In this document: positions 1,306 through 19,193 of the stretch, one piece after another
Layout of the letters: the number at the start of each line of letters is the position of its first letter
Numbering within the stretch: position 1 is the first letter of the stretch
Source: a virus
Strand: one strand, 5' to 3'
Length of the DNA: 24,675 nt
IMG/VR virus record: IMGVR_UViG_3300009285_001679
Coordinates: 1-24,675 of that record
Notes under the pieces: generated by a model
Seen by the model: only the letters and a program-made list of their open reading frames with translations
Database searches by the model: none
Told to the model about the DNA's origin: nothing
Translations under genes and position numbers: made by a program

Positions 1306-4300
1306 TTAAACAACTGAATATCCATTTCCTCCCACTATTGACCAACCTGCGCCAATATATGCAAGGGTAGCAGTATCTCCTGCCGCATTCAGTGTAACTG
1401 AAGTACCTCCTTTCATTGTATCGGGAGTAATGGTTGCTATTCCTGTAGCTGAAGCACATACGATTACCATTATTTGTCCTTCGGTTCCATTTGCAAGTGT
1501 AAATGTGTCTCCGCCTGCGTCAGCATCAATATAGTGAGCTGTTTTTGTTAAATCAAGAGCTGTAGAAGTTCCACCAGCTGCGATTGTTTCTGTTCCGGCA
1601 AAGATTACTTTTGCATCAATTCCAGCCGTCAAAACAACAGCAGCTGTTCCTGTAAACACACCCGTAACAGTCAATGTTTCATCAAATGTTACAGTCCCAG
1701 CATCAACTTTAATAGCTTCTACGTTTGCTCCTGTTGCATTAACATATAAAGCGTGAGTTCCTGTTGTGCCTGCACCGGATGATGTAATTGACACTGCGTG
1801 AGAAGTAGCCGAATGACTACCGGATGTATTTATATCTACAACATTAGCACCTGCAACCAAATTGGCTGTTTGTGTAATGTCAAGGGCACACCCTTCTCCA
1901 GATACTCCAGTTCCTGCTGAATTAATCGTAATAGCCCTACCAGCAACGTTTGTATCCATTGTGATACCAATAGCATCACCAGTTGAAGCCTCTGTTCCGA
2001 ATGTTAATTGAATAAGGTTTGAGTCAAGCAACCCTGTTTGGTTGATAAAGAGAACATGGTCGTCAGTTCCACCGTCCGTGCCGGTATTTGCAATATAGAT
2101 TAATGGAGCTGTTCTAACTCCCGCCGCGTCTATAAGAATTGCGTTTCCGGCAAGATTAGAACCAAGGTCTACATGAAGTGCTGAACCTGTTGCGGCGGCA
2201 CTATAGACAATATCAATCTCATTACCTGTATGAACTCCTGATATGTCAATATCAAAGAGATTTCCAGAACCGGTATTTGTAACATTAACATCCATTAATG
2301 ACACATTACCTGAACCGTCAAATGTTACATCAATAACATCTGCTGTTCTGATTGCATTCCCTGCGTCAAGTAAGATACCTGCACAAGCAACTGCTGCGTC
2401 CAAATCAATAGCAATAACCGCCACCCCAGTAGCCGCACCACTCATTGCGATGTCTATAATATTTCCTGTTCTAATTCCAGTAACATCAATGTCAAATACT
2501 GAACCTGAGCCAGTATTTGAAGCAGTGATTGCCAGAGCATCTACATCTCCTGAACCATCATCAGTGATGTTGATAAGATTATCAGTTCTTAAACCTGCAC
2601 CACCATCAATAAAAATAGCAGCGGCGGCAAGTCCTGCATCCATATCAATGTTGATGACATTTCCAGTTGAAGCTGCTCCAAGAGCTACATCAAAGATGTG
2701 TCCCGCATATACTCCTGTAACATCAATATCAATAAGAGGATTAGATGTTGCTCCTGTGCCAGTTGCATTAATGTCAATTAATGTTCCTCCAGCACCTGTG
2801 CCGTCTCCTTCTGCAAGAAATTCAACAACTGGCTGTGTTCGTGTACCTGCTCCTGAATCAATTCTAAGAGCTGTTGCTGCAAGACCAGCGTCAAGGTCAA
2901 TGTTTATCACATTTCCCGTAACAGCTGCTGAGGTAGCGACATCAAAGACATTTCCTGTATAAGCATCTGTGAGATTAATGTCGAAGATATGACTATTTCC
3001 AGTTGAAGCGTCATCAATCTTAATTAAGTCATCTGTTCTTATTCCAGCACCTACAATCGTAAGAGCTGAACCAGCAACAGCTGATGTCATATCAAGATTA
3101 ACTGCATCTCCTGTAGCCGCCGCTGAATAAACAATGTCAAGAACATTGCCTGTATGTATTCCGGAAATGTCTATATCAAATACATGACCAGTAGCTGCTC
3201 CAGAGATTTGCACGCTCATTACGTCACCTGACGGAGTTCCTGAATCTGCTACCTGGATAGCGTCAACAGTTCTCGTCATCGCTCCTGATGTAAGAACAAT
3301 TGCTTGTGCTCCTGTTCCGGTCGCACCAAGGTCTATATCAAGAACATTACCCGTATAAGCAACTGCTCCGACTAAGACATCAATGAAATTACCAGAACCT
3401 GCTCCTGTGATATCTAAATCAAACACTTGTGCTGAACCGGTTGAATCTGTTATAACTTCAATCATTGGTTGTGTTCGTATTCCTGAACCTTCAATATGAA
3501 TAGCGGTCATTGCAACTGCATTATCCATATCAAAGAATAGTATATTTCCTGTAGAAGCTGATGATGCGCCAAATGCTACATCAATAATATTTGAGTCGAA
3601 CACTGCGGTGAAATCAATATCAAATATATGAGAGGTTGTACTTGCATCTGTGTGTCCAAGATTGAAGTCAAACATAATGCCTCTATCGCCAGTTCCCGTT
3701 GTCAACTGCATTACTTCTGTATCGAGGTTGTCAGAAGCATTTAAGTCTACGAGAAATACTTGTCCTCCTGGTGAACCATTGTAAGAACCAACAAAGTCGA
3801 ATCCTACCGTAGCTCCTGAACCAGATGAATTGATATCAATTACTGAGTGAGCTCCTGTTGAGTCGTCTGTTACAAGAATGTCTGCACCCGTGCGAGCTTC
3901 TGCACCTGCGTCAATATGTATTGCATTTGCAGCAATACCTTTATCTATGAAGATATCAATAGCATTACCTGTAAGTGCGGCGCTAACATCAAGGTCAATA
4001 AGATTGCCTGAACCAGCTCCTGTCTTATTGATTGCAAATGTATGAGCCGCTCCTACTGTTGAATCGTTAAAAGCAATCTCACCCGCATCTACTGTAATAC
4101 TGCGTCCTTGGTCATAAGCTCCGTCAAGCGAAGCTGTCCCTCCACCTCCAGAACCGAGAACTGTCGTTGTCCCTTGATTTGCGTAAACAAGGTCTCCAGA
4201 TGTGTTTATATATAAACCACGATGACTGGAACCTATTGGGTCTGAAGGGTTTGTACTCTCAAAAAGGAGAATACCTCCACGACCAGAACCTTGACCTTTT

Positions 4301-4350
4301 AAGTTAATGTTCCTTGGCGTGGAATATTGTCGTGTGTTAATTGTTGCCAT
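1306..4350 (-). CDS. Giant repetitive beta-solenoid fibre-like protein, 1014 aa
   Basis: The N-terminal 100 residues include ASLDGAYDQGRSITVDAGEI, a segment type I associate with phage and phage-derived structural proteins. A long body of degenerate rungs follows, built from TGNVIDID-, GSGNLFDID- and AGxAIxIDAGxxRT-like units. Hydrophobic, beta-branched and Gly/Asp residues alternate every 16 to 18 residues, as expected for a beta-solenoid. The x-R-T element recurs about eight times, 66 to 84 residues apart. The last 140 residues (from about VTFDETLTVTG to GAGWSIVGGNGYSVV) are less repetitive and may be the trimer-forming or receptor-contact end. It follows the major capsid gene directly. A tail fibre or head fibre role is inferred. 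There is no signal peptide. The ATG is preceded by an in-frame TAG, which fixes the start, and a strong SD lies too far upstream to serve it. Confidence 0.75.
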   Translation of the reverse strand: MATINTRQYSTPRNINLKGQGSGRGGILLFESTNPSDPIGSSHRGLYINTSGDLVYANQGTTTVLGSGGGGTASLDGAYDQGRSITVDAGEIAFNDSTVGAAHTFAINKTGAGSGNLIDLDVSAALTGNAIDIFIDKGIAANAIHIDAGAEARTGADILVTDDSTGAHSVIDINSSGSGATVGFDFVGSYNGSPGGQVFLVDLNASDNLDTEVMQLTTGTGDRGIMFDFNLGHTDASTTSHIFDIDFTAVFDSNIIDVAFGASSASTGNILFFDMDNAVAMTAIHIEGSGIRTQPMIEVITDSTGSAQVFDLDITGAGSGNFIDVLVGAVAYTGNVLDIDLGATGTGAQAIVLTSGAMTRTVDAIQVADSGTPSGDVMSVQISGAATGHVFDIDISGIHTGNVLDIVYSAAATGDAVNLDMTSAVAGSALTIVGAGIRTDDLIKIDDASTGNSHIFDINLTDAYTGNVFDVATSAAVTGNVINIDLDAGLAATALRIDSGAGTRTQPVVEFLAEGDGTGAGGTLIDINATGTGATSNPLIDIDVTGVYAGHIFDVALGAASTGNVINIDMDAGLAAAAIFIDGGAGLRTDNLINITDDGSGDVDALAITASNTGSGSVFDIDVTGIRTGNIIDIAMSGAATGVAVIAIDLDAAVACAGILLDAGNAIRTADVIDVTFDGSGNVSLMDVNVTNTGSGNLFDIDISGVHTGNEIDIVYSAAATGSALHVDLGSNLAGNAILIDAAGVRTAPLIYIANTGTDGGTDDHVLFINQTGLLDSNLIQLTFGTEASTGDAIGITMDTNVAGRAITINSAGTGVSGEGCALDITQTANLVAGANVVDINTSGSHSATSHAVSITSSGAGTTGTHALYVNATGANVEAIKVDAGTVTFDETLTVTGVFTGTAAVVLTAGIDAKVIFAGTETIAAGGTSTALDLTKTAHYIDADAGGDTFTLANGTEGQIMVIVCASATGIATITPDTMKGGTSVTLNAAGDTATLAYIGAGWSIVGGNGYSVV
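1900..4050 (-). repeat. Coding repeats of the fibre gene (degenerate, about 200-250 bp superunits)
   Basis: Across this approximate span the fibre gene consists of diverged copies of a superunit, visible in DNA as recurring stretches equivalent to TGNVIDID and RTxxLIxI codons. Superunits measured between successive R-T elements are 66, 84 and 80 residues. Copies differ by several rungs, so expansion and contraction by recombination is plausible. The edges given are approximate. Confidence 0.6.
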
Positions 4351-8156: not shown

Positions 8157-8564
8157 CTAAATAATTTTATTAACATGTTTTTCTAATTGTGACTCTGATT
8201 TTAATTCACCTTTTCTATATTTTTCTGGATTAGATATAAGAAGTTTTTCTACAATAGTTTCTGGCATAAAGTATGTATATGCCGCCCTAACAATTTCTCC
8301 TTTACGCATATTTTTTTTTAACTTAAAAGAAAGTAAACGAGTAATAGAGCGCACTTTTGTTTCTTTAATCGGAATCAAATCTTCTTGTTGTTGTTCGTCA
8401 GCAAATAAAAATAAGAGTCCAAAAAGCTCATCACGGCTCATTGTGGTGCTTTTGTTTCCCATCGTTAACTTAAACCATTTACACGGAGTTGAATGTTTAG
8501 AATAATTTGCTTCAAAGGTAAGGTCTTGTGTAAGTTTTAAGCGTGTATATTCTGTGTGTTTCAT
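8157..8564 (-). CDS. Unknown protein downstream of the homing endonuclease, 135 aa
   Basis: A basic 135-residue protein starting MKHTEYTRLKLTQDLTFEAN. A beta-like N-terminal part (SKHSTPCKWFKLTMGNKSTT) is followed by helices (SRDELFGLLFLFADEQQQED, then KVRSITRLLSFKLKKNMRKG) and a helical tail rich in Lys and Glu. Its ATG overlaps the TGA of the endonuclease gene (ATGA), so it is translationally coupled. It ends with TAG before an AT-rich gap and a new promoter. I do not recognise the family. A nucleic-acid-binding role would fit the charge but is not shown. Confidence 0.65.
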   Translation of the reverse strand: MKHTEYTRLKLTQDLTFEANYSKHSTPCKWFKLTMGNKSTTMSRDELFGLLFLFADEQQQEDLIPIKETKVRSITRLLSFKLKKNMRKGEIVRAAYTYFMPETIVEKLLISNPEKYRKGELKSESQLEKHVNKII

Positions 8565-9277
8565 ATTTGTCGTGCTTCAATAAACTTACTTATATTAAAA
8601 TCTTCTTTTACAATCTCATGCTCTGGAATACGAATAATCTTATATCCACAAGCTGTAAGATATGCGTTTCTTGATTTATCAAGCTTTCTTCCGTTATAGC
8701 CACACTTCTCACACTTGTGCCAGTAACAACCGTCTGCTTCAATAACTAAGTTGAGAGAAGGTATAAAAGCGTCTACTAAAAATTTACCATTTATCAACTT
8801 TTGTTTTTCAAACAAGAAGCCAGTCCTTTTAAGTTCATTATAAACCTTAAATTCAATAGATGTTTCTTTAAAACTTCCTCTTTGTGAAATGGTTTCTAAT
8901 CTTTTCTTTCTTGCTTGTGGTGAATTTATATAGCCATAATTTAACTTGCGATTCAACTGTCCTAATTTCATCTTCTCTCTTGATTCTAATGAAAGTTTCT
9001 TACCTTTATTCCAAGCCGCTTGACCTAAATGAGATAGTCTGTTTATCTCAACCTGTTTAGCTGTTTGTGGCTTGCCTTTTTTGGCAAAACTAATTTTTTT
9101 TCTTGATTCAATTGTATGTTTTCTTCCTTTACTGGCAAATCCTATTTTTCTTTTATGCTCTTCAGTGAGTTTTCTGCCTTTTAGAGATTGGCTGATACGA
9201 AGCCTAATGTCTTTTGAATAAACCCCAATCTTTCCTTTATTCCAAGGAATTCTTTTTTTATATACTTCCCGCTTCAT
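8561..9277 (-). CDS. NUMOD3 / Vsr-like homing endonuclease, 238 aa
   Basis: The protein starts at the ATG at 9277 (MKREVYKKRIPWNKGK); a TTG six bases upstream is the only alternative. The N-terminal half carries several NUMOD3-type DNA-binding units: PWNKGK near residue 10, SLKGRKLTEEHKRKIG near 31, SKGRKHTIESRKKIS near 49, and WNKGKKLSLESREK near 89. Residues about 138 to 225 resemble Vsr / DUF559-type nucleases, with E142 (IEFKVYNEL), D169 (VDAFIP), E180, H187 in DGCYWH, a CEKC pair, D200 and a C-terminal strand YKIIRIPEHEI. This matches the E-D-x-H-D homing endonuclease plan. It overlaps the upstream 74-aa gene by 20 bases and the downstream gene by 4, so it is fully embedded in the operon. 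Being free-standing, it would cut a cognate phage lacking it, at a site I cannot identify. Confidence 0.85.
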   Translation of the reverse strand: MKREVYKKRIPWNKGKIGVYSKDIRLRISQSLKGRKLTEEHKRKIGFASKGRKHTIESRKKISFAKKGKPQTAKQVEINRLSHLGQAAWNKGKKLSLESREKMKLGQLNRKLNYGYINSPQARKKRLETISQRGSFKETSIEFKVYNELKRTGFLFEKQKLINGKFLVDAFIPSLNLVIEADGCYWHKCEKCGYNGRKLDKSRNAYLTACGYKIIRIPEHEIVKEDFNISKFIEARQI

Positions 9278-9482
9278 ATTCAAGTTGTTTTTTAAAATCG
9301 TTTAAAAATGTCTTACCTCCCTCACTGTGTGCAACATTCCAAACTGTCTCCCATTCAGTGTTTCTTTTCAGTGAAGACCAGATAAAGTTTCTTTTCATAT
9401 AATCCTCAAAAAATACTTCAAACGCACCCCATTGGGGTTGGGACATTAGTTGTTGTAATTGTTTGCGATATTGGTCGTTCAT
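9258..9482 (-). CDS. Small protein coupled to the portal gene, 74 aa
   Basis: A 74-residue helical protein, MNDQYRKQLQQLMSQPQWGA then FEVFFEDYMKRNFIWSS and NDFKKQLEYEAGSI. Its ATG overlaps the portal stop (ATGA), so it is translated by coupling. Its 3' end overlaps the homing endonuclease. Small acidic or helical proteins are frequently found right after portal genes, but their roles are mostly unknown. It has no membrane segment and no Cys. It could help portal or head assembly, which is inference from position. Confidence 0.65.
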   Translation of the reverse strand: MNDQYRKQLQQLMSQPQWGAFEVFFEDYMKRNFIWSSLKRNTEWETVWNVAHSEGGKTFLNDFKKQLEYEAGSI

Positions 9483-13879: not shown

Positions 13880-16800
13880 CTAATTTACTAATTCATTAAA
13901 GTCATTAATTCTCTTTTGTCTTTGCTCTTCTGATTTTGTTTGCGTCCAATACTTGTCAACATATATTTCTGCATCTGACAAGTTTGGATTTCTTTCTCTC
14001 ATCAATTGAAAATATTTAACGCCAGCATTTAGCACATCTTCTCTATCATTTTTGTCAAACGAATCATCAATGAGTCCAACTCGTTTTAGTTCTTTGATGG
14101 CAATATTAGTAAGCCCTATAAGCCATTTTATTTCACCCTCATCAGCACTTGTTTTATCTGTTCCGCCAGATGATTCAAGCTGCATTAGAGTTGTTTTTAG
14201 AACTTCAGGAGAAGTTATTTGTTTTTGTTCTTCCTCTTTTTGATAAGTTGTCTTTGTTTGATAAGTTGTTTTTGAAGGAACAAATAAAGGAGCAAATAAA
14301 GAACTTGCAATTACACCTGCACCAGTAACTGCACTTCCACCTAAAAGAGTTGCGATATTGGTATGTCCAAATGCAAAAGTGGGCTTCTTATGTTCACCTT
14401 TAATATTAGTAATTTTCCACCAACTGCCAGGAACTGTCTCACGAGTAGTCATATTAAACTTATCTGGCACGTTAAGATTTGGTACTTTTTCTACTTGTAA
14501 GCCCATCTTTCTTGCTTCTCTTGGAATGGCTTCTTCATTGAGTTTATGAACAAAGTGTTTGGTATCTATTTTGCCAGAGATGTCAAAGGTTTCTGAACGA
14601 CCCCCAATATATGCCTTTCCATCAACTATTTTATTATATCCTAAAGCAACATCTCCTAAATAAATTTTTCCATCAACTAACTTTCTTCCTTCAATTTTAG
14701 TATTTGCCTTAAACTTCCCATCTCCGAGGACGTCGGTGATTATCCATTGGTCTTGCTCTGCATAATTTGGTTGATTGCCAAATCCAGGTTCATCTCTTGA
14801 AATCCTTGCTCCTACTTCTAATTTATCAGGAGTCAATTTACCACTCCCACTCGGTCTCATTCCTGCTGGTGTTTCTATATCATCGTACAACTGTCTCCAA
14901 GTTGTTCTGTCTCCCAACCCCTCAATCTTCATTGCTGTCTCTCCGCTTGGAATGAGAATAATATTCTTGCCATCTTTAGCAGCTCGCTTTACTTCTTCTC
15001 TGAAGGTACGGAGTTGAGCGAGTGGATCACTAGAAGAGTAGGATTCTAGTTTTTGTAATTCTTGTTTTCTTATTTTTTCTTTTATTGTTTCGTCAACTTT
15101 CTCAGGAAGATCATCTATAATCTTAATTATTTGTTGGATACGTAATTCATTTTTGGCTATATTTGTAAGTTTATCTTTTTCTAGGCCAATTGCACCAGAC
15201 TTGTATTTATCTGTATCTTCCCTAACTTTACCAAGCCATTCTTCCAACCACGGTTTGTCTTTTTTAGATAATCCAAATTCCTTACTTAACCTATCTAAGT
15301 CTTCTAGATTCAAACCTTCTCTACTTTTTTCATAAAATGCGAAAGGAAAAGCATCTTTTTTTAATTCTGGATGTAATTCGCCTCTATAATCTACTGACTT
15401 GTAGGGTGTTTTTTCGAGTGCAAAATTATCTTTCTGCATCAAATCACTTTGTGTCTCAAGTATTTTACGAGTCTTGCCATCTGCCATATCTTCATAGCGA
15501 ATATGAGAGAAATAGTTAGGGAAATCATTGCCGCCTTGTTTTTTAGCGACCAATTGAACCCACTCTGCATTTTCTTGTGGAGTCATTGTGTTGGATATAT
15601 TTTTCTGCACAAGAACATCGAGTCTTTGTCTCTCTACTCTTGTTAATTCTTCAATGTTTCCAGTTCCTCTTTTCATGAAATGCACGTCTCCGGCGCTTGT
15701 CTTTATAGGACTTTGATAAACTATTTCTCCATACTTGCCATCACCTATAAAGTCTTCGCCAATATTTGACCATCTTGGAGACTTAACTTCAGTTGGAGTA
15801 AGAGGGAGAAGTTGTTCTTCTATGTCTTTTGCGAGTTGAGTAAGATTGATTTTACCTTTTTCTTTCAGTTGCGTTTCTGCCAAAGAAACAATTAAGTCTT
15901 TTTCGACTTTCTTGATGCCTTCTTTTTCAACACGATTTAATACTTCGCGAAATTGTTGTTCAGTTATCTCATTTAGCATCCCCTTGAATTTTTCAAGGAG
16001 TTTAGTAGAAAGATTAGAAAGACCTTGGAATATCTTAGGCCCAGCGGCTTTGGCCATTCTAAACTTTGCTGGTCTTCGCATATATTCTTTTATTCCTTGT
16101 GTACCAGTTCTTTCGTGAGTTGAAACTCTTATTAATCTCTTCTCTTCTTCTGCTGCCAATCTTCTATAGAGCCTTTCGTCTGTAATCACATCAAACTCTC
16201 TTTTGCCAGCTTGATACATTTCGACTAATCTATGTTTTCCATTAACAATATCGTATTTGCCATTTGGCATCTTTTCAGCCAATAATGGCAACCTCAAATA
16301 AGATGTTTTCTTCTTTGAAACATCCTTAAGAGCTATTATAATTTCATCACTCATATTGACCTCTTTGATTGAGATCTTAGAAATAGCTCCTGACGGAAGC
16401 TCCTTCATTAAAGCACTAAATCTTTCAGGCTTAATAATAACTTCGGCTTCTTCTTCAAAAAATCCAGCAGATCTTTGAATCTTTGATGGCAACTCAGTTG
16501 AGTCTAAAAGTATTTCATCTGGAGTAAATTTTCGTGCAAGAACCCTGCCTGTGCCATATGTGTGCTCCTTTGCAAGTTCTTTATTATAAGTCCAAGAAGT
16601 AGGTCGAGAAAAATCCAAGGCCTCACCCTCCTCAACTCCTCTATAAAGCGTAACGGTCTTTTTGGGCTTATATTCTTCTCCAAGTTTTTCGATTGACCCC
16701 ATATTAATCTTGGGCTTTTCGCCTTGTGCAGCATGTGTCCATTTTTGAAGCTCTATGATTGGGTCATTTTCTTTTTCTCTTAACTTTATACCCTTGCTTT

Positions 16801-17836
16801 CAATATACTCTTCTACTGTTCCTGGTTTCAAGTCTTGAATAATATGTTCTTTTGCAGTCTTCCCTGTTTCTATTTTAATCACTTCGTTTGCCGACTTAAC
16901 TTTTGTCTCGAGTTTTTCTATTCCTGGCTTGATATCATAAATTGGCCTTTCAAGCTGTGTCCCCTCTCTTAAATTAACAGTTTCAAATGTTCTTTGTTTT
17001 ACATCTTGAGTAGTCCGAGTTTCTAGTGCCTCTCTTATTGTTTGATCTTTGATCTTGCTCGTAGTTTCTTTAAACTCATTCCCTACTTCATTGATAGTTT
17101 TTGAGAGTGCTTTGTCTTTTATTAAACCAAATGCCTTAGAGGCTGCCTTAAAAACTCCAAGAGCTATTATGTCGTTTCGCAATTGCTCAAGACGACTTCC
17201 TTCTTCGTGTAAAATCTGTCCAGTACCCAAAAATCCAACTGCATCAGAAATAGCAGGAATATACTTAGCAACCTTTGGAGCAAGATTTAGTGCCTCAAGG
17301 CCAACTTTAGTTGTCTTAGCCATGCCTGAGTAAGGAACCATCCATCCTAAGAACTCACCAACTTGTTTGGCTTTTTCCTCTTCAGGAGTTTGTGGCTTAC
17401 TTTTTATACTTTCAAATTCTTTATTCTCAACCACCTCGCCAGAAAGAAATTTCTGCGAAGATTCTAGAGGTTTAATAACTGCTGTCTCATAAGCGCCCTT
17501 CAAAATCTCTTTTGGCTTCATAATGGTCTTTTCATAAGCGCCAATTGTTTCACCTATTTTATCAAGCGTATCAGTAACAGTAATTAATGGATTTTTTGCT
17601 GCCTTTTGAGCCTCCTCTTCAGCCTTTAGGTAGCCCTCTACTAATCCTTTAAACTTTTCTTGTCTTTGAGTTTCTTCTTGTATGATTTTATGCTTTTTGA
17701 CTATGTCCTGATAAGTAGATGGTCGAGCTTGTTGAAATTCTTCGTAATTCTTTTGCGCCAAAGCATCACTCAATTTTAATGGAGCGATCGGTGATTTATT
17801 TTTATATTTATTAACTATATCTTGATAAGTTGACAT
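13880..17836 (-). CDS. Polyvalent ejection-type protein, 1318 aa: ART-like, ParB-like, LPD-like, membrane and transglycosylase-like parts
   Basis: The start is taken as the ATG at 17836, four bases after the previous stop; an in-frame GTG at 17869 would overlap that gene. Residues 2-10 and 40-48 repeat STYQDIV. Residues about 155 to 245 hold membrane-seeking helices (VGFLGTGQILHEEGSRLEQL nearby). About 360 to 475 resemble an ADP-ribosyltransferase: LYRG (R399), TSWTYNKELA (S414) and EEEAEVI (E463, E465). About 495 to 555 resemble a ParB-like domain with IVNGKHRLVEMYQAGK. About 690 to 980 match a large-polyvalent-protein type segment: FSHIRYEDM, ETQSDL, and IPSGETAMKIEGLG. A hydrophobic stretch lies near 1160-1185. 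The C-terminus has QLESSGG (E1221) and LNAGVKYFQLMRERNP, like lytic transglycosylases. Such proteins are injected with phage DNA. The domain calls are by eye, and catalytic activity is not shown. Confidence 0.68.
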   Translation of the reverse strand: MSTYQDIVNKYKNKSPIAPLKLSDALAQKNYEEFQQARPSTYQDIVKKHKIIQEETQRQEKFKGLVEGYLKAEEEAQKAAKNPLITVTDTLDKIGETIGAYEKTIMKPKEILKGAYETAVIKPLESSQKFLSGEVVENKEFESIKSKPQTPEEEKAKQVGEFLGWMVPYSGMAKTTKVGLEALNLAPKVAKYIPAISDAVGFLGTGQILHEEGSRLEQLRNDIIALGVFKAASKAFGLIKDKALSKTINEVGNEFKETTSKIKDQTIREALETRTTQDVKQRTFETVNLREGTQLERPIYDIKPGIEKLETKVKSANEVIKIETGKTAKEHIIQDLKPGTVEEYIESKGIKLREKENDPIIELQKWTHAAQGEKPKINMGSIEKLGEEYKPKKTVTLYRGVEEGEALDFSRPTSWTYNKELAKEHTYGTGRVLARKFTPDEILLDSTELPSKIQRSAGFFEEEAEVIIKPERFSALMKELPSGAISKISIKEVNMSDEIIIALKDVSKKKTSYLRLPLLAEKMPNGKYDIVNGKHRLVEMYQAGKREFDVITDERLYRRLAAEEEKRLIRVSTHERTGTQGIKEYMRRPAKFRMAKAAGPKIFQGLSNLSTKLLEKFKGMLNEITEQQFREVLNRVEKEGIKKVEKDLIVSLAETQLKEKGKINLTQLAKDIEEQLLPLTPTEVKSPRWSNIGEDFIGDGKYGEIVYQSPIKTSAGDVHFMKRGTGNIEELTRVERQRLDVLVQKNISNTMTPQENAEWVQLVAKKQGGNDFPNYFSHIRYEDMADGKTRKILETQSDLMQKDNFALEKTPYKSVDYRGELHPELKKDAFPFAFYEKSREGLNLEDLDRLSKEFGLSKKDKPWLEEWLGKVREDTDKYKSGAIGLEKDKLTNIAKNELRIQQIIKIIDDLPEKVDETIKEKIRKQELQKLESYSSSDPLAQLRTFREEVKRAAKDGKNIILIPSGETAMKIEGLGDRTTWRQLYDDIETPAGMRPSGSGKLTPDKLEVGARISRDEPGFGNQPNYAEQDQWIITDVLGDGKFKANTKIEGRKLVDGKIYLGDVALGYNKIVDGKAYIGGRSETFDISGKIDTKHFVHKLNEEAIPREARKMGLQVEKVPNLNVPDKFNMTTRETVPGSWWKITNIKGEHKKPTFAFGHTNIATLLGGSAVTGAGVIASSLFAPLFVPSKTTYQTKTTYQKEEEQKQITSPEVLKTTLMQLESSGGTDKTSADEGEIKWLIGLTNIAIKELKRVGLIDDSFDKNDREDVLNAGVKYFQLMRERNPNLSDAEIYVDKYWTQTKSEEQRQKRINDFNELVN

Positions 17837-17840
17837 GTTT

Positions 17841-19193
17841 TTATCCAATCTCATTATTTGCAGTTCCACTTGTTTTGCCTATTCCATATTTCCTGCGATC
17901 TTCTGGACTTAAATAATCAGAGAAGCTATCATCAAAATCTGCAGAAGTTCCTTGATTATTTTGAATATAAAGATTCTTGATATCCCTATATACATTTATA
18001 TCAACAAATCCACCTCCTCCAATAAGTTCACTTAGTGCACCCGCTGCTTCTGCGTCATTTGCATGCCCGCCGCCTTTACCTGCTAAAAACTGAGCGTAGG
18101 TTTTCCCGGTTCCAGCTTGACCTCCAGCAAGACTCCATTCTTGATAAGACGAAGGAGCTTCGTTTGGTTTTGATTTTGCAATCTTTCCAGCTGAAACCTG
18201 ATTTACAATATTCCCTACCTCATCATAAGTAGTAAGTGTAACCTCGCCTGTTGCAGCATTAGTGGATTGAATAACCTTATAACCCTCTGTTGCTGACTTC
18301 ATTCCTTGAATGGTAAACTCTTGCCCAGTATTTGGATCTGTAATTGTTTGAGTTTCTCCTTCTGGCAACTCTTTGGCAATTGCGATTAGATCAGAACTCT
18401 TAAAGAATGGATCTGGTGTAGCGATTCCTGTATAGACCGTTCCATTGGGCGAAGTATAAGTTTCTCCAGCTGGGAGCTTCGAGATAACATTAAAGTAATT
18501 CTCGTCTTGTTGGATTTTTGCATTTTCTTTCTGAATGTTTAATTGCTCAAGGTCAATACCAATACCTAGAATCTTCAAAGCTCTATCATATAGCTTATCA
18601 TTAATCTTATCTCTTTTTTCTTCTTCAATCCTCAAAGACTCATTGGTTAATTTAATGCTTTCAACATCAAGCATTGCAAGGGCTTGCTCTTTTTTCTTTT
18701 CTAATGTTTTAATTCTATCGTCTATGTCTTTTTTAACAGAAGAAATATATCCAGCAGAAGCAGTATCAAGCCCTAGGTCGCCACCAGCAAATCTTGCTGT
18801 TTGAGCCGTAGCAACTCCAAGTTCTTTCTTACCCTTTTCTGTTTCTTGGCCTATTGCTTCTCCATACTGACTTTCTATGAGACGTCTTGATGCAGCTTCT
18901 TGTTCTTCGATGTTCTTCCGGATTTGTTCTTCCATATTAACAGAAGTAGAAAGTCCAGAAGATTGAGAAGACATAAAATTATTGATCCAAGCGTTCGGGT
19001 CAGAAAGAAAATTTGGACTATTGCCAAGATTAGTATTAGGAGAAGCTGGCGCTCCAAGAGTTGCAGGAGTTATTGCGGAAGTCGCTGGCAGAGGCGCTCC
19101 TCCACCAGTAAAAATATTACCAGAAGCATCAAGAATATTTCCTTGATTGTCAATATTTACGACTTGTCCATTAGGAAGAGTTGTTGTTGGCAT
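17841..19193 (-). CDS. Coiled-coil internal virion / ejection protein candidate, 450 aa
   Basis: The N-terminal 90 residues are Pro/Ala/Ser/Gly-rich and low complexity. A long coiled coil spans about 90 to 240 (EEQIRKNIEEQEAASRRLIE, then TLEKKKEQALAMLDVESIKL, and DLEQLNIQKENAKIQQDENY). A beta region follows, with two related hairpins around LPAGETYTSPNGTVYTG and LPEGETQTITDPNTGQEF. Near the end is SSYQEWSLAGGQAGTGKTYA; its GTGKT resembles a P-loop only by chance, since no ATPase core surrounds it. Ala-rich segments sit before the Gly-rich GKGGGHAN. Its place between the fibre-like protein and the 1318-aa ejection protein, and its coiled-coil build, suggest an internal virion or DNA-ejection protein. 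The family is not recognised with certainty. Confidence 0.6.
   Translation of the reverse strand: MPTTTLPNGQVVNIDNQGNILDASGNIFTGGGAPLPATSAITPATLGAPASPNTNLGNSPNFLSDPNAWINNFMSSQSSGLSTSVNMEEQIRKNIEEQEAASRRLIESQYGEAIGQETEKGKKELGVATAQTARFAGGDLGLDTASAGYISSVKKDIDDRIKTLEKKKEQALAMLDVESIKLTNESLRIEEEKRDKINDKLYDRALKILGIGIDLEQLNIQKENAKIQQDENYFNVISKLPAGETYTSPNGTVYTGIATPDPFFKSSDLIAIAKELPEGETQTITDPNTGQEFTIQGMKSATEGYKVIQSTNAATGEVTLTTYDEVGNIVNQVSAGKIAKSKPNEAPSSYQEWSLAGGQAGTGKTYAQFLAGKGGGHANDAEAAGALSELIGGGGFVDINVYRDIKNLYIQNNQGTSADFDDSFSDYLSPEDRRKYGIGKTSGTANNEIG

Follow-up and report, generated by a model that had tools for sequence, protein, structure and literature searches.

A 1318-residue protein of a viral contig as a candidate polyvalent virion protein with an R-S-E ADP-ribosyltransferase-like part, a ParB-like part and a conserved core

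Does the 1318-residue protein encoded beside the packaging genes of IMG/VR virus record IMGVR_UViG_3300009285_001679 combine several unrelated domains that enter the host cell together with the phage DNA, and what would such a protein deliver? We analysed the window formed by positions 1 to 24,675 of this record (24,675 nucleotides in total). Overall, we consider it probable that a podovirus-like (short-tailed) phage uses the protein as a polyvalent virion protein that is ejected with the DNA. This reading was drawn at the level of sequence, from the domains, their order, their homology and the gene context, with injection and the activities inferred from these. Polyvalent proteins are recognised by two or more unrelated activities within one chain, and here an ADP-ribosyltransferase (ART)-like part and a ParB-like part accompany a conserved domain that we call the QSD core.

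The locus and its relatives

The open reading frame runs on the minus strand from an ATG at 17836 to a stop at 13880 (positions 13880-17836), and all parts of the protein discussed below lie on that strand. An alternative GTG start is present 11 codons upstream, from which the frame would run into the preceding gene, a 450-aa member of the tail/ejection cluster (17841-19193) with a stop only a few bases before the start of the 1318-aa gene. Downstream come, in order, a 142-aa gene, the large terminase, the portal and, at a greater distance, the capsid gene. The large terminase was assigned by a PHROG match, while the portal and capsid were assigned by size, place and conserved cluster, with an additional weak Pfam match for the capsid. 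The 142-aa gene is, by position, a putative small terminase. Encoding in the company of virion structural and packaging genes, as in this portal-terminase phage, is a further mark of polyvalent proteins.

Relatives were reached with the terminase first, then the portal and then the core as queries. The terminase shares approximately 30% identity with phage terminases in 464 records, including Vibrio phages and Escherichia podoviruses, and as much as 53% with terminases on uncultured IMG/VR contigs. The portal-based search yielded the nearest relative, L225 (portal 64% and capsid 85% identical). Genome contigs scanned with the core and the portal yielded neither a host genome nor a prophage.

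Several other features of these genomes caught our attention. The gene downstream of the portal (8561-9283) reads as homing endonuclease-like, with repeated NUMOD-type motifs and what appears to be a VSR-like end. A 1014-aa protein (1306-4350) is composed of many similar short repeats (TGNVIDI-like), with only its ends conserved in most relatives. In L005, the large terminase (L005:1293-3977) has 894 aa, of which approximately 280 extra residues, possibly an intein, interrupt the conserved region.

Direct searches with the 1318-aa protein were silent: hmmscan of the whole protein and of its domains against Pfam, PHROGs and NCBIfam gave no match for any part, and neither did a PDB sequence search or tblastn in phages and plasmids. 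The AlphaFold model of residues 340-1318, built from nine sequences, was poor (mean pLDDT 47.6, with the ART region below 50), and a fold search with it is meaningless. The motifs quoted in the preliminary description are all found at the residues given there, namely L397-Y-R399-G, T413-S414-W, EEEAE at 461-465, IVNGKHR at 530, ETQSDL at 794, PSGETAM at 963 and QLESSGG at 1219 (containing E1221).

The QSD core and the domains around it

The QSD core spans residues 593-1165 (14342-16060). Residues 593-1182 share 49-50% identity with stretches of the L225 gene that directly follows the portal, and alignment-based scans added seven further homologues (L255-L261), giving eight with L225. Identity between the core and these eight homologues, all on other phage contigs, is 41-58% over the aligned pieces, and the motifs FPNYFSH, E.QSDL, DPLA.LR..REE, P.G.TA and ETFD.S are common to nearly all of them. 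Within the core, the block FPNYFSHIRYEDM...ETQSDL pairs with NVLAHMRLNDR...EEIQSDWHQ of a large phage superfamily comprising at least 120 stretches. Profile-profile comparison of the two gave P 1.5e-5, and a relaxed alignment was colinear across the whole domain. In terms of these alignments, the core belongs to a phage domain that is widespread and carries the EEIQSDWHQ motif, and within which it forms a divergent branch. No Pfam match was obtained for the core region in four superfamily proteins. In one contig, L140, the EEIQSDWHQ motif occurs twice (L140:7031-7057 and L140:10205-10231). Among cultured phages, Dolichospermum phage Dfl-JY45 gave a match to the superfamily.

For a superfamily member, L124, AlphaFold produced a confident model from 54 sequences (pLDDT 85.8). 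With VIA-align, the majority of the 50 best PDB rows were GNAT-fold acetyltransferases, at a best Z of 8.1 that is not decisive alone. Foldseek of the L124 model by itself gave no significant PDB match, and its BFVD matches were large phage proteins, some of them annotated as ART-PolyVal or large polyvalent protein. For the window's core, to which it is transferred from the L124 model by homology only, a GNAT-like fold is a tentative prediction. None of the nine proteins in the window's branch has the acetyl-CoA loop pattern Q/RxxGxG/A (between beta4 and alpha3), and for this reason we describe the core as GNAT-like in predicted fold and not as a demonstrated acetyltransferase. The preliminary description had called this part LPD-like; it is indeed a conserved domain, but one of a specific QSD superfamily with a GNAT-like predicted fold.

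Comparison of the homologues indicates that the core stays constant among related phages while the payload domains are exchanged. The window's protein has nothing inserted in the slot at approximately residue 657, where L258 has a ParB domain and L261 an ART-like domain of the H-Y (PARP) type (E 0.039 to Pfam PARP; motif YHTT...YGKGVYFA). Recognised payload domains are missing from L255, L256 and L260. In more distant terminase relatives, genes at comparable positions carry LPD38 or zeta-toxin domains.

At the end of the core lies a hydrophobic, Gly/Ala-rich segment (residues 1160-1182, 14291-14359; hydropathy 1.68), the sole such segment in the protein. A Gly/Ala-rich hydrophobic segment precedes the C-terminal end in L225, L259 and L261 as well. 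The C-terminal residues 1205-1318 (13883-14224) make up a lysozyme/SLT-like helical domain that is homologous to the C-termini of L257 and L261, and E1221 aligns with a glutamate in both, so that two homologues retain this catalytic-type residue. A profile of the three homologous C-termini matched SLT weakly (P 0.011, glutamates aligned), but the window's domain alone matched neither an SLT profile nor PF01464. We regard the transglycosylase-like assignment of the preliminary description as plausible but unproven and as the weakest of the domain assignments; cleavage of peptidoglycan is the likely role of the C-terminal part.

Matches of the C-terminal profile to PPR were taken as chance, and a scan with the C-terminal domain returned no further relatives. 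Other relatives have different ends in this place. That of L258 is cell-wall-hydrolase-like (PF07486 E 0.0033, short of the curated cut-off) and that of L259 resembles endolysin/tape-measure proteins (PHROG E 1e-4), while L255, L256 and L260 have no such C-terminal end. The L225 C-terminus gave no family match, and a double-psi/3D-like cell-wall reading of it was set aside. L258 additionally has an SLT domain in a separate gene (L258:6572-8212; PF01464 E 5e-6, narrowly missing the curated cut-off), two upstream of its QSD-core gene, and wall-cutting domains therefore appear to move between proteins.

The ART-like and ParB-like parts

The ART-like domain with its R-S-ExE motif set occupies approximately residues 385-475 (16412-16684). 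We compared residues 340-490 by hhalign with a profile built from nine R-S-E ARTs of phages (T4 ModA, ModB and relatives), which gave P 6e-5 and a score of 34.8. Among 71 tiles of the window's proteins, the best non-overlapping one scored 17.0, and 100 shuffles of the ART stretch reached at most 24.6. The R, S and ExE motifs are all present and in the right order, as R399 (16640-16642), S414 of the STS-type motif SWT (16595-16597) and E463-A-E465 (16442-16450; compare EQEVMIP in ModA). The aligned block comprises 49 columns and takes in the S motif (SWT versus SFT). Outside this block, LYRG (LWRG in ModA) and EEEAEVIIKP (DEQEVMIP in ModA) follow in the correct order, with an R-to-S spacing of 15 residues that is shorter than in ModA and ModB. 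PF03496 had no match in the 1318-aa protein, and ART-PolyVal (PF18760) had none in the window's record, the positive control L112 matching at 6e-20. L176, a BLAST match to the ART region, was rejected because it resembles a tail protein and its alignment lacks the motifs.

The ParB-like domain follows at approximately residues 495-555 (16172-16354) and includes NGKHRL. The profile used here consisted of two sequences, the ParB-like domains of the related phages L226 and L258, to which hhalign linked the window's protein at P 7.6e-6; the match covers approximately residues 510-555 and scores 38.0, with no control tile above 17.6. The domain of L258 in turn hits ParB families in PHROG (E 4.6e-8) and in Pfam (0.0014), and the (D/N)G.HR motif of ParB-like domains is present in the window's part. 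A direct search of the window with PF02195 returned nothing. Both of these parts had been proposed in the preliminary description, and both are supported, by profile matches that stand above tile controls and, for the ART-like part, above shuffles as well.

Might these parts be inactive, serving as packing or structural filler in an ejection protein whose relevant functions are wall cutting and the channel alone? We think this unlikely. Both domains are short and very divergent, to the extent that hmmscan detects neither, the ParB part is cut down to approximately 60 residues, and three of the homologues do without a recognised payload, all of which would suit filler. However, the R, S and ExE residues have all been retained and a relative retains an ART-like domain of another class, suggesting that ART activity is under selection. 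A more basic doubt is that the ART-like call itself could be a chance profile match in a region that is really an uncharacterised domain, given that the window's ART is known from a single sequence and that the aligned block is short and the motif spacing deviates. We hold this to be quite unlikely, as the score exceeds everything obtained from non-overlapping tiles and from shuffles and as the R and ExE motifs lie beyond the block that was aligned.

Probable injection and comparison with known systems

All nine core genes are located within a packaging/ejection cluster. In the window the gene is flanked by tail genes on one side and by putative TerS/TerL/portal genes on the other, and the core genes of the relatives adjoin TerS, TerL, portal or tail/ejection genes. 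The place of the core gene within the cluster varies among phages, which counts against a polyvalent virion protein; the controlled domain matches together with the gene clusters support the earlier proposal that a polyvalent protein is encoded with virion genes. It is very unlikely that the protein is not injected and instead has its role in the cell that makes it, for example as an effector made late or as a lysis or maturation protein, since its gene sits among packaging/ejection genes at each of the nine loci and its architecture fits described polyvalent virion proteins (PMC5512222), even though endolysins also have wall-acting C-terminal domains and the QSD superfamily matches a PHROG labelled endolysin.

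As a polyvalent virion protein, the 1318-aa product would be made late, together with the packaging and tail genes, be packed into the head and leave it with the DNA. The lysozyme-like C-terminal domain, behind the hydrophobic segment, would cut peptidoglycan during entry, and the conserved QSD core would be the common module of the protein family. The R-S-ExE ART may then, like T4 Alt, modify a host protein as infection begins, and the ParB-like domain may act on DNA or nucleotides. The guides to this proposed course, including the preliminary description's modification of a host target ahead of phage gene expression, are the gene context and the closest precedents, T4 Alt and T7 gp16.

The preliminary description further suggested that such a first-strike effector may be undescribed, which is too strong. 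Iyer et al. reported phage polyvalent proteins with ART, ParB-like and lysozyme-type domains in 2017 and predicted their injection (PMC5512222), and a 2022 survey described fusions of Alt/VIP2 ARTs with head proteins of the MuF type (PMC9503650). The protein studied here resembles the former in having several unrelated domains, of the same three types, in one late-cluster protein, and the pattern described for them is likewise one of an unchanging core combined with interchangeable effectors and wall-acting ends. However, the ARTs of the 2017 polyvalent proteins are of the H-Y-D type (ART-PolyVal) (PMC5512222), whereas the one here is R-S-E, and the QSD core is without a Pfam family match. The MuF-fused Alt/VIP2-family proteins share an R-S-E ART, packaged via fusion to a head protein (PMC9503650), but no MuF match was found here and the partner is the QSD core.

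T4 Alt is injected and modifies host RNA polymerase (PMC5512222). With Alt, ModA and ModB the window's protein has the R-S-ExE motif set in common, with a profile match to ModA/ModB, and Alt likewise goes in with the DNA; the T4 proteins stand alone, whereas here the ART is one domain of 1318 aa and has a shorter R-S interval. T7 gp16 is an ejection protein as well and contains a transglycosylase domain (PMC8954989); it is also a large protein of a short-tailed phage with hydrophobic segments. Its transglycosylase is N-terminal, though, and no ART or ParB part has been described for it. No significant sequence similarity was found between the two, and we take their equal length of 1318 aa as a coincidence. 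Proteins of the EEIQSDWHQ superfamily in uncultured phages (e.g., L106, L112 and L126) possess a homologous core, in L112 together with an ART-PolyVal domain, but differ in the motif variant (ETQSDL here) and in the other partner domains.

The polyvalent class has thus been known since 2017, and what is new is the combination of an R-S-E ART with the QSD core. An Alt-type (R-S-E) ART would now be joined to a true polyvalent protein, an association reported absent in 2017. Moreover, a conserved core without a Pfam match occurs in many uncultured phages, with neighbouring domains swapped between relatives, and could be a handle for finding more injected phage effectors as well as a concrete domain for activity tests. 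More tentatively, the QSD core could be a widespread, unnamed module of injected phage proteins, a constant part that derives from a GNAT-like fold, lacks the usual acetyl-CoA loop and bears payloads (R-S-E or PARP-type ARTs, ParB) and wall-cutting ends that can be exchanged, and that may be a new enzyme type or a virion-loading module; we regard this as possible but doubtful.

The N-terminal region (residues 1-300, 16937-17836) belongs to no family and gave no significant profile match; on position only, it is a possible virion-association part. It contains a duplicated short motif, TYQDIVNKYK at residues 3-12 and TYQDIVKKHK at residues 41-50 (17687-17830), with a score reached by none of 200 shuffles. 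Homology of this N-terminus to the ejection-position proteins of L258 and L260 was considered, and the comparison gave no support. Doubled motifs of this kind are backed by shuffles in the proteins named below, with some chance matches in a wider scan. Ejection-position proteins often begin with two copies of a short motif that differs per phage, as seen for TYQDIV.K.K, FGS.PI.PV, YTYE.L..G and FDP..FGA.P (window 17687-17830, L098:8141-10111, L104:7277-9565 and L258:8212-9618).
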